A stretch of DNA of 64,000 nt from contig JAIYAW010000009.1 of assembly GCA_027488835.1 (NCBI GenBank), positions 310,001 to 374,000 on the forward strand, given 5' to 3'. The DNA is from Bacteroidota bacterium (GTDB lineage Bacteria; Bacteroidota; Bacteroidia; NS11-12g; UBA955). The position numbers and the translations under genes are program-made. Below, in pieces: positions 58,558-61,473 of the stretch; position 1 is the first letter of the stretch; every line of letters begins with the position of its first letter. The notes beneath the pieces were generated by a model. That model saw only the letters and a program-made list of their open reading frames with translations, was not told the DNA's origin and made no database searches.

Positions 58558-59031
58558 ATGAGAAAAGTAATTTTAGGATTGGCGCTAGTGGCAGTAGGAT
58601 TTATTGCTTCATGCGGAAAAGACAGCTCATCATCTGCTAACTCAGATGATATAACTGGAAAAACAACACAACAAGTCATGATGATGCGTGCTTGGAAATC
58701 AATTTCGTTTAAAGATAGTTCTGAAAATGGGAATATTGAGACTTATGATGTATGTTCTCGAGATGATACTTATCAATTCACATCTGCAACATCTTACATA
58801 TGGAATGATAATGCTTCAAAATGTGACCCTACTGGTGCTTCAACTGCAAATGGAACATGGTCAATGCCTGATCCTGCTGGTAAAATTGTTTTAATTGACA
58901 ATATTAAATTCCTAGGAAAAACCGTTGAATGGTATGTTGAATCCATGAGTGGCACATCTATCCTATTAAGATTCAGAGGAATTGACAATAGTGGTAAAGG
59001 AATCACTTGGAGAATGACTTTATCTAAATAA
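58558..59031 (+). CDS. Lipocalin-like small lipoprotein
   Basis: A 157-residue predicted lipoprotein: MRKVILGLALVAVGFIASC with Cys19 as lipid site, then a Ser/Asn linker. The mature domain begins with a strand around RAWKSISFKDSS, has CSRDDTYQF and NGTWSMPDPAGKIVLID in the middle and ends WYVESMSGTSILLRFRG ... WRMTLSK, a pattern shared with Bacteroidota lipocalin-like (about 120-residue, eight-strand) domains. Two mature cysteines (DVC and SKC) could pair. The ligand is unknown. It has its own good promoter and a strong terminator, so it is monocistronic. Confidence 0.75.
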   Translation: MRKVILGLALVAVGFIASCGKDSSSSANSDDITGKTTQQVMMMRAWKSISFKDSSENGNIETYDVCSRDDTYQFTSATSYIWNDNASKCDPTGASTANGTWSMPDPAGKIVLIDNIKFLGKTVEWYVESMSGTSILLRFRGIDNSGKGITWRMTLSK

Positions 59032-59044
59032 AATATTCATTTTA

Positions 59045-59081
59045 CATAAAAAAAGCCCGTTAAATACGGGCTTTTTTTATG
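59045..59081. terminator. Bidirectional intrinsic terminator
   Basis: Perfect 16-bp arms (59045-59060 and 59066-59081, loop TAAAT) with A and T tracts within the stem. It serves the lipocalin-like gene and the convergent tRNA-Leu/TPR transcript. Confidence 0.92.
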
Positions 59082-59095
59082 TGCTAAAAATTCAA

Positions 59096-60109
59096 TTATT
59101 TTTTAATCTGATTCAAATACTCTTTTGTTATTGATGAATTGGGATTCAGCTTTAATGCTTTATTGAAATTATCCAATGCATCATTATTATTGCGCTTCAA
59201 CATAAACGCATACCCTCTTAGTGTATAGGCTTTGTCGAACATTGGATTCAATTCTGTACATTTATCGCAGTATTTGATTACATCATCGTAGTTTTCAAAC
59301 AAATTCTCAACCACTGCCCTGTTGTAATAGGCCAACACATGAAACGGATTGATTTTATTAACTTTTTCATAAAGCTTTACTGCATCTTTATAATTGCCCA
59401 TTCGCTGCAACAATAAACCTTTGGTATAGATTGCTTCATCGCTAAATTCATTTAATACAATGGCCTTATCAATATACTTCATTGCCATTTTCGGATCTTT
59501 TTCCAAAATAAACATGGCTTTTTGCATCGTGGCATCAAAGTTATTGGGATTAATTACCAGTACTTTATCAATAATTTGAATGGCTTTAATACTGTCTTTT
59601 TGCTCTTTGAATGCAACAGATTTAAGTATGAGAACTTTTTCATTGTAATCTGGCATATCAATAATGCGATTCAATAATTTCTCAGCTTCGGCATATTGTT
59701 GACGCGCAACATACAATTTAGCCAATAAATAAATGGCTTCATCGTATTTAGGGTTTAATTGAATGGCTTCTTTTAAATGCTTGTTAGCTCCTTCGTAATT
59801 AGCAGAATCTAGCGACAGGTAACTTTCGCCAATTCTCAAGTGATATAATGCGTTTTTAGGAGAAATTGCAATTGCAGTATTCAAATCGACAATGGCATCT
59901 TTGAATTTATTAGAAAAGTAAAATGAATTCCCTCTCAGGTAATAATTTTCGGCATTTCCTGGATCTAGATTGATTTTTGCAGAGATTGAACGAATATCGG
60001 CAGAGAAAGTGGTATCGGTGTCTGATATATACCTCGCACCATCGGGCAAGGACTTCCCACATGCAAAAATTATTAGGGGAATTAATATCGGAAAAAGAGA
60101 TTTCCGCAT
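59096..60109 (-). CDS. TPR-repeat lipoprotein directly downstream of tRNA-Leu
   Basis: A 337-residue predicted lipoprotein made almost wholly of tetratricopeptide repeats. MRKSLFPILIPLIIFAC gives Cys17 as the lipid site, so the ATG at 60109 is well supported. Eight or so TPR units follow from about residue 45 (AENYYLRGNSFYFSNKFKDA, ALYHLRIGESYLSLD, DEAIYLLAKLYVARQQYAEA, and so on to AYTLRGYAFMLKRNNNDALDN). It probably acts as a protein-protein scaffold in the envelope. The start codon is only two bases from the tRNA-Leu discriminator base, with no terminator or separate promoter between, so it must be co-transcribed with the tRNA. Confidence 0.9.
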   Translation of the reverse strand: MRKSLFPILIPLIIFACGKSLPDGARYISDTDTTFSADIRSISAKINLDPGNAENYYLRGNSFYFSNKFKDAIVDLNTAIAISPKNALYHLRIGESYLSLDSANYEGANKHLKEAIQLNPKYDEAIYLLAKLYVARQQYAEAEKLLNRIIDMPDYNEKVLILKSVAFKEQKDSIKAIQIIDKVLVINPNNFDATMQKAMFILEKDPKMAMKYIDKAIVLNEFSDEAIYTKGLLLQRMGNYKDAVKLYEKVNKINPFHVLAYYNRAVVENLFENYDDVIKYCDKCTELNPMFDKAYTLRGYAFMLKRNNNDALDNFNKALKLNPNSSITKEYLNQIKK

Positions 60110-60111
60110 GG

Positions 60112-60197
60112 TGCTCGGGACGGGAATCGAACCCGTACTGGCATTACTGCCAACAGGATTTTAAGTCCTGCGCGTCTACCTATTCCGCCACCCGAGC
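60112..60197 (-). tRNA. tRNA-Leu (anticodon TAA)
   Basis: An 86-nt class II tRNA: acceptor GCTCGGG/CCCGAGC with discriminator A at 60112, anticodon stem around loop CTTAAAA (anticodon TAA), a long variable arm (GTTGGCAGTAATGCCAGT region) and T-loop TTCGATT. The next bases on the transcript are CC then ATG of the TPR gene, so a CCA is formed using the A of the start codon; the two tRNA-Val genes have no encoded CCA, so this may be chance. Confidence 0.97.
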
Positions 60198-60212
60198 GTC
60201 GTTAAGGGAGTG

Positions 60213-60244
60213 CAAAAATAGGAAAAATATTTTTACAATCCAAA
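60213..60244 (-). promoter_or_regulatory. tRNA-Leu promoter TTTG-N20-TATTTTTG
   Basis: On the minus strand TTTG (60241-60244), 20-base spacer, TATTTTTG (60213-60220), 15 bases before the tRNA 5' end. It would drive both the tRNA and the TPR gene. Confidence 0.75.
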
Positions 60245-60249
60245 AACTA

Positions 60250-61473
60250 TCACAACATTTCTTTTACTGTCTTTTCAATAATATCGCAAGCTTGATTGAT
60301 TTGATCTTCATTAATCACCAAAGGAGGTGCGAAGCGAATAATATGGGTATGGGTTTGTTTTGCTAATAATCCATTGTTCTTTAAGGCAATACAAATATCG
60401 TAAGCTGTTTTTCCATTGCCAAAAGGCTTCACCACAACTGCATTTAGCAATCCCTTGCCTCTCACCAATTCAAAAACTGGGATATTCATTTTTTCCAATC
60501 TTTCTCTGAATAACACTCCCATTTTGGTTGAATTTTCAATTAAATTCTCATCTTCAATCACTTTTAATGAGGCCATTGCAACCGCACAAGCAAGTGGATT
60601 TCCACCGAAAGTACTTCCGTGTTGTCCAGGTTTCAATGTTAGCATTACTTCGTCGTTACCCAAAACACAACTAACGGGAAGAACTCCCCCACCAAGAGCT
60701 TTTCCTAATATCAGCAAATCGGGTTTTACATTTTCATGTTGGCAACAAAACAACTTACCCGTTCTTGCTATACCAGTTTGAACTTCATCTGCAATCCAAA
60801 GTACATTGTATTTGTCACACAAGTCCCTCACTCCTTTTAAATATCCATTATCTGGAACTACCACGCCTGCTTCACCTTGAATAGGTTCAACCATGAATGC
60901 ACAGACATTCTTATTTTGGAATTTTTCTTCTAAAGCAGCCAAATCATTATAGGCAACAATAGAAAATCCTGGAACAAATGGTCCAAAGTTGTTGTAACTG
61001 TCACTATCTGTACTTGAGCTAATGGCCGCAATCGTTCTGCCCCAAAAATTTCCCTCAGCAAAAACAATTTCAGCTTGATTTTCTGCAATGCCTTTTACTT
61101 CGTATGCCCATTTACGCGCAAGTTTAATGGCAGTTTCACCACCTTCAACACCCGTATTCATCGGCAATACTCTATCATATCCAAACAATTCGGTGATGTA
61201 CTTTTCATACTCCCCCAATATATTGTTGTGAAAAGCTCTGCTGGTAAGCGTTAATTTCTGAGCTTGATCGTTGAGCGCTTTTATAATACTTGGATGGCAA
61301 TGCCCCTGATTTACAGCAGAATATGCCGATAAAAAATCAAAATATTGTTTTCCTTCTACATCCCAAACAAAAATCCCCTCGCCTTTTTCAATAACAACAG
61401 GAATTGGATGGTAATTGTGAGCGCCAAATTGATCTTCTAAATCAATGTAATATTGTGAATTTTCCATAGACAT
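60250..61473 (-). CDS. rocD: Ornithine--oxo-acid aminotransferase
   Basis: A 407-residue PLP enzyme that transfers the delta-amino group of ornithine to 2-oxoglutarate, giving glutamate semialdehyde. The PLP lysine is Lys258 in [42 protein letters not shown] and the OAT-typical [17 protein letters not shown] are present. The start is at 61473 (MSMENSQYY), with an alternative ATG two codons on. It has a TAATTTTG element 11 bases before the start. No other arginine or proline genes are close by. Confidence 0.95.

Follow-up and report, generated by a model that had tools for sequence, protein, structure and literature searches.

The window, that is, the whole stretch of 64,000 nucleotides that was analysed, carries a leucine tRNA gene whose encoded 3' end runs into the start codon of a gene for a TPR-repeat lipoprotein. 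From upstream to downstream, the locus consists of the following elements:

60250-61473, minus strand: ornithine aminotransferase gene (rocD; TIGR01885, 678 bits), ending upstream of the tRNA promoter
60241-60244, minus strand: TTTG, a possible -33 element (from the sequence)
60213-60220, minus strand: -7 box TATTTTTG of the tRNA/mRNA promoter, 15 nt upstream of the tRNA (from the sequence)
60109-60197, minus strand: tRNA-Leu(UAA) gene, anticodon TAA (ARAGORN, encoded CCA counted in)
60112-60197, minus strand: match of the same tRNA to the Rfam tRNA model, 63.6 bits
60112 and 60111-60109, minus strand: discriminator A and encoded CCA of this tRNA, whose acceptor stem is GCTCGGG/CCCGAGC (ARAGORN and sequence)
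60107-60109, minus strand: ATG of the TPR lipoprotein, its A doubling as the last base of the encoded CCA
59096-60109, minus strand: ORF of the TPR-repeat lipoprotein, 337 aa, with signal peptide MRKSLFPILIPLIIFAC and lipobox Cys17
~59044-59082, minus strand: intrinsic terminator, a 17-bp hairpin with a T run (fold, -23.9 kcal/mol)

On the minus strand the junction reads ...CCCGAGC A CC ATG CGG AAA..., and the tRNA and the ORF overlap by one base. ARAGORN, the sequence and the ORF list agree exactly with the earlier note, which had placed the discriminator at 60112, followed by CC and the ATG at 60109. Its claims of a promoter upstream of the tRNA and a terminator behind the TPR gene are borne out as well: TATTTTTG is separated from TTTG by a spacer of 20 nt, no sigma-A box lies inside the tRNA, and the hairpin with its T run follows the lipoprotein gene. 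TTTG and TAnnTTTG correspond to the promoter type described for Bacteroidota (PMC6847099). The terminator is absent from the list of a simple scanner, probably since its T run pairs into the stem; the hairpin is symmetrical and possibly serves the convergent gene at 58558-59031 too. The tRNA does not lie inside an upstream ORF: the end of rocD, at 60250, precedes both promoter and tRNA.

The encoded protein has a Pfam TPR_1 match (5.6e-32) and, in the profile search, no NCBIfam equivalog above cut-off; the 60 matches listed among solved structures are TPR or TPR-like repeat proteins. Orthologue identity drops to ~40%, and Met residue 1 and the lipobox Cys (the column of residue 17) are invariant across 11 aligned orthologues. 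In the window, the stretch from 60109 to the lipobox Cys contains no further in-frame ATG, GTG or TTG; a wrong start codon was thus rejected, and ATG 60109 stands as the sole plausible start, as had been claimed. Compared with three close relatives, the window gene differs mostly at synonymous codons (88/22, 98/26 and 86/30 synonymous/nonsynonymous), and by these comparisons the ORF is under purifying selection. Matches to the TPR protein occur in 96 of 97 relatives, those in poorly matching genomes including unrelated TPR proteins. A link through leucine codons was rejected, TTA making up 25% of the Leu codons of the TPR gene versus 36% in the background. In one genome (G007; L062 / L187), frame changes break both the TPR gene and the adjoining rocD and are probably assembly errors.

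The window genome (G000) is 2.49 Mb in size and 99% complete, and its family (f1) is represented by 14 genera in our sample. Those relatives that have names are metagenome assemblies, and isolate names point to lakes or ponds as the source of many. We searched 108 genomes of the order for the 3' end of this tRNA followed by an ATG within 0-6 nt, with the reversed pattern as a control. The pattern is present in 33 of these genomes, in 4 of 24 genera (g1, 14/14; g4, 2/2; g10, 3/3; g5, 14/15; all other genera, 0), and the reversed control gives 0 matches. The sole genome of the four genera that lacks it is G106, where the contig ends inside the gene, so the junction occurs in all 33 genomes of these genera with an assembled gene start. 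Among 395 genomes drawn from the class there are three pattern matches, two in the same family and one (G122) without an ORF at the ATG; wider spread of this junction beyond the family was therefore rejected. Among the 33 tRNAs in the window genome, only the tRNA-Leu has a genuine gene beginning at most 8 nt away. The comparison with relatives that the earlier note had proposed thus shows the junction to be conserved, as a genetic unit that did not come together by coincidence. An assembly artefact was rejected given the 33 separate genome assemblies that contain the junction. So was a tRNA serving as a phage integration site, as no relative was found in viral contigs and the syntenic neighbours are housekeeping genes.

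The junction was read base by base in 30 fused loci (those in which tRNA and ATG adjoin), one per genome. The discriminator lies 2 nt from the ATG in 12, 3 nt in 11 and 4 nt in 7. Nine leader sequences occur: CAA (11 loci), CC (10), CCAA and CAAA (2 each), and CCAC, CG, CTAC, CTAA and CA (1 each). Sequence and exact length have changed several times, yet the distance is always 2-4 nt, even among proteins that share as little as ~40% identity. CCA is encoded at 13 of the junctions and absent from 17. Ten, including the window, share the A (CCATG), and at three CCA is followed by one more base before the ATG. The CCATG type appears in four separate places of the tree (the window group, G005, G002/G011 and g10). 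Overlap of CCA and start codon is thus restricted to 10 of the 30 loci and not common to all members; what has been conserved is a short leader rather than a shared A.

Between the start of the tRNA and the ATG, no TTTG (sigma-A -7 box) was found in any of the 30 loci, and the 2-4 nt junction leaves no terminator or promoter between the co-strand tRNA and ORF. In 26 of them a strict TAnnTTTG precedes the tRNA by at most 60 nt; the exceptions are L014 and the three g10 loci. Precursor folds keep the acceptor stem intact in 27 cases, and the MFE fold breaks it in three. As a control for spacing, the leader from tRNA-Thr(GGT) to tuf was measured in 28 genomes of the same family and ranges from 24-118 nt; the 10 of these that belong to fused genera have 24-39 nt. 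In the window genome it is 37 nt, and tRNA-Trp to secE is 15 nt. An untranslated leader such as that of tuf is therefore not kept at the fused junction (2-4 nt versus 24-118 nt). In g5 species an in-frame ATG lies in the variable arm of the tRNA, 33-36 nt upstream; we treated it as an artefact of the ORF caller because tRNA sequence would then precede the signal peptide. Codons 2-7 of the window gene can form a hairpin, CGGAAATCTCTTTTTCCG (60089-60106), which is also present in the closest relatives. It was considered as an attenuator (60106-60089) and rejected, since the sequence was not found in the g5 junctions.

Phylogenetic analysis of 67 orthologues places the fused genes in one clade (support 99/99) with one change as the fewest required. 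Genera g7 and g8 adjoin this clade and also have tRNA-Leu(TAA) upstream of the TPR gene, 66-129 nt off (8 loci); in the loci read, a separate hairpin with a T run stands behind the tRNA, and the TPR gene has its own -7 box. In g12, which also adjoins the clade, the tRNA-Leu is divergent from the TPR gene, and in more distant genera tRNA-Leu(TAA) is located elsewhere, behind tRNA-Gly(GCC), in 6 of 10 genomes examined. Based on the latter arrangement, a single move of the tRNA to the TPR gene is the simplest assumption. By the most economical scenario it arrived with a terminator, and ~100 nt, including this terminator and the promoter, were then lost. The opposite direction of change is possible, the relevant fork having a support of 90/73. 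Throughout the fused clade rocD is upstream, and the downstream genes, in convergent orientation, encode a TcdA-like ThiF protein and a lipoprotein of small size. The upstream genes of g7 are different, but its downstream neighbours are as in the fused clade.

Promoters of the TPR gene in relatives without the fusion bear on how it is translated. In all 12 non-fused loci of g2, g7, g8, g12 and g14, a strict TAnnTTTG ends 3-6 nt before the ATG. Across the 25 non-fused loci of the family, the strict box has a gap of 3-8 nt in 14, lies 26-27 nt upstream in five and is not found within 40 nt in six, so a box of the leaderless type is not universal outside the fused clade. The -7 box of Flavobacterium psychrophilum is reported to span -12 to -5 (PMC9723704), and a distance of 4-5 nt from box to start site is given in PMC6847099; by the F. 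psychrophilum spacing, a 4-nt gap would place the transcription start at the A of the ATG. Thus, the TPR gene already looks leaderless in sister genera, without the tRNA. The earlier note had held that homologues found away from any tRNA and starting elsewhere would speak against its view. The outcome is mixed: relatives free of the tRNA do exist, but their protein starts at the same place, and the gene mostly looks leaderless again.

Similar promoters occur more widely in the window genome. Among 317 ORFs in 464 kb of sequence (L112-L131 and the window), 28 have a box 3-8 nt before the ATG, compared with a mean of 1.84 and a maximum of 5 in 100 shuffles of the upstream regions. The excess in the 25 non-fused loci over this background has a Fisher p of 3.6e-8 when every locus is counted and of 7e-4 when each genus is given a single vote, p-values that ignore shared ancestry. 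The enrichment of leaderless-type promoters suggests routine translation of leaderless mRNA in this lineage. Published shares are 5.5% of mapped mRNAs for leaderless transcripts in F. psychrophilum (PMC9723704) and 3.7% for 5' UTRs below 10 nt in Bacteroides thetaiotaomicron (PMC7366714).

We propose, with a probability of about three in four, that the tRNA-Leu and the lipoprotein mRNA are made on a shared transcript, and that 3' processing of the tRNA generates a nearly leaderless mRNA. A sigma-A promoter, starting ~10 nt before the tRNA, would drive the tRNA-Leu(UAA)-TPR unit, and the terminator behind the lipoprotein gene would end it. The tRNA would fold within the nascent transcript, RNase P would trim it on the 5' side, and on the 3' side RNase Z, or a different endonuclease, would cut at the discriminator or within or after the CCA. 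This cut is predicted to free an mRNA with a 0-4 nt leader for translation by the leaderless route. The uncut precursor should be poor for initiation because the AUG is only 2-4 nt from the acceptor stem. With a shared transcript and a cut, the lipoprotein would be made in step with an essential, single-copy tRNA. The earlier note had already put forward one transcript for both RNAs and a leaderless mRNA arising from tRNA processing; the 2-4 nt junction in 30 of 30 loci, the lack of an internal sigma-A box and the sister promoters set for a leaderless start support both points well.

The window genome encodes the enzymes that such a route would need:

C2:290980-291870: RNase Z (TIGR02651 matched end to end, 273.7 bits, below the curated cut-off of 292.95)
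C5:426170-426553: PF01743 nucleotidyltransferase (CCA-adding enzyme; profile match)

CCA is encoded in 6 of its 33 tRNAs and absent from 27, and the usual route must therefore be a 3' endonuclease cut at the discriminator followed by CCA addition. At junctions without CCA, RNase Z would release mRNAs beginning CAAAUG and similar. In the presence of magnesium, CCA slows the RNase Z of Bacillus subtilis 1520-fold, whereas in cobalt the enzyme mainly cuts after CCA (PMC7479834); CCA-encoding tRNAs of Streptomyces are reported to be cut between the two Cs (PMC4681348). A cut after CCA in the CCATG species would leave UGCGG..., which has no start codon. This speaks against the proposed processing, as CCA is encoded in the window and a cut after it, as made mainly by the B. 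subtilis enzyme (PMC7479834), would remove the A of the AUG. Keeping the AUG in the window would then take either cleavage at or inside CC or a different nuclease. Further points against the proposal are the four fused loci that have no strict box before the tRNA, the three precursors whose acceptor stem is broken in the MFE fold, and the non-fused relatives in which a leaderless-type box is missing. Since four separate CCATG lineages keep the gene, enough AUG-intact mRNA must arise in them. The earlier note had expected that processing could remove the A of the start codon, and this applies to the 10 of 30 CCATG loci, not to the 17 without CCA or the three with CCA and one further base. Competition between lipoprotein expression and tRNA maturation, which it had also raised, is likewise possible for the CCATG subset and not for the other junctions. 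Two of the CCATG genomes, G011 (L108) and G002 (L109), have an RNase Z that lacks ~40 residues of the middle region relative to the other three aligned members, which also counts against the proposal. Six genomes of the order (G015, G059, G063, G065, G067 and G069) have weak partial matches to the RNase Z model only and may be without a classical RNase Z.

Other readings of the junction must be considered. Ribosomes could initiate on the uncut tRNA-mRNA with the tRNA part acting as a 5' structure, just as viral IRES elements have leaders inside tRNA-like folds. We find this hardly credible with an AUG 2-4 nt from a 7-bp stem that is predicted to be intact in 27 of 30 precursors, and an essential single-copy tRNA needs processing anyway. 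A neutral accident, in which an ancestral deletion joined tRNA and gene and a merely tolerated junction is expressed by read-through, fits the single origin of the fusion in the tree and the conservation of the neighbouring genes as a block; part of the conservation could indeed be inertia, given the tight rocD-tRNA-TPR synteny. It seems unlikely in view of the repeated changes among nine leader sequences that always leave 2-4 nt, and of purifying selection on the TPR ORF. Alternatively, a promoter that departs from the sigma-A consensus could give the lipoprotein gene a separate transcription start, located at the ATG or within the tRNA. The relatives' TPR gene does have its own promoter placed at the ATG, and alternative sigma factors occur in the phylum, 7% of start sites having other motifs in one study (PMC9723704). 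The 85-89 nt before the ATG are strongly constrained tRNA sequence without TTTG in 30 of 30 loci, which makes such a start distinctly improbable.

At CCATG the outcome could also be either/or: a CCA-ended tRNA with a headless mRNA, or an AUG-intact mRNA with a tRNA left for repair by the CCA enzyme, the lipoprotein output reading the state of tRNA processing. The recurrence of the shared A at 10 of 30 junctions in four separate tree places agrees with this, as do the ability of a bacterial RNase Z to cut after CCA (PMC7479834) and the Streptomyces cut between the Cs (PMC4681348). The 17 junctions without CCA and the three with an additional base point instead to the short leader as what is conserved, and we regard the either/or fate as improbable. 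Returning to the shared transcript with a processed 5' end, we tentatively extend it as follows, a possibility that we hold to be doubtful as a whole. The essential tRNA would replace the promoter and 5' UTR of an already leaderless gene, as in tRNA punctuation, and in CCATG species one adenosine would serve as either tRNA end or start codon, so that the output senses the maturation route (RNase Z and the CCA enzyme, or a cut after CCA).

The E. coli thrT-tufB operon is a bacterial tRNA-mRNA operon. Operons of this type, exemplified in the window genome by tRNA-Thr-tuf and tRNA-Trp-secE, are likewise co-oriented and apparently one transcript, from which tRNA processing must free the mRNA. They keep an mRNA leader (37 nt before tuf and 15 nt before secE), unlike the tRNA-Leu/TPR junction with its 2-4 nt and, in some cases, overlap with the tRNA end. 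In animal mitochondria, by tRNA punctuation, a tRNA abuts the ORF, and the 5' end of the mRNA, which has hardly any leader or none, arises when this tRNA is excised. The abutting tRNA-Leu and TPR ORF and the predicted excision-made 5' end resemble this; mitochondrial punctuation acts on a genome-wide polycistron, whereas here a single chromosomal unit has its own promoter and terminator and the cut is predicted. Leaderless mRNAs made by transcription start at the AUG are familiar from Actinobacteria and Deinococcus. The TPR mRNA is similar in that its predicted 5' end is at or at most 4 nt from the AUG, and differs in that this end would come from processing (5' monophosphate or hydroxyl) rather than initiation.

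The nearest published case that we found is a prediction for Alphaproteobacteria, in which selC is nested in or overlaps selB and tRNA processing is predicted to yield a leaderless mRNA of the next ORF (Mukai 2021, PMC8124441). The same type of product is predicted here. In the selB-selC arrangement the tRNA sits within the preceding ORF, and its processing is proposed to be repressive (PMC8124441). At the tRNA-Leu/TPR locus, by contrast, no upstream ORF reaches into the tRNA, which is an essential one, and expression from a leaderless mRNA seems to be productive. In the open-access PMC literature we found no example from bacteria in which a conserved tRNA-ATG junction goes with leaderless expression that is productive. 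If the proposed processing is true, this would be a conserved natural bacterial case in which tRNA maturation sets the 5' end of a productive near-leaderless mRNA, as in mitochondria, where such ends are familiar; in bacteria they are hardly known. The family holds both forms of the gene, one leaderless by transcription start and one by a predicted tRNA cut. Two questions thereby become directly testable: how well the ribosomes of Bacteroidota, which work without Shine-Dalgarno sequences, can start on a leaderless mRNA, and which site the tRNA 3' nuclease chooses where CCA and AUG share a base. It would also offer a clean evolutionary path for the takeover of a promoter by a tRNA.

Close spacing of a tRNA and an ATG was seen at two other loci. 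At L085, an ATG lies 1 nt past the discriminator of a tRNA-Met(CAT), but its frame has only 7 codons. At L230 (G014, genus g2; minus strand, 1490-1586), a tRNA-Leu(TAA) follows tRNA-Gly, and its discriminator is 8 nt before the ATG of a 157-aa GAF-domain protein, an arrangement that is not conserved in G027 of the same genus. This protein presumably resembles free methionine-R-sulfoxide reductase.
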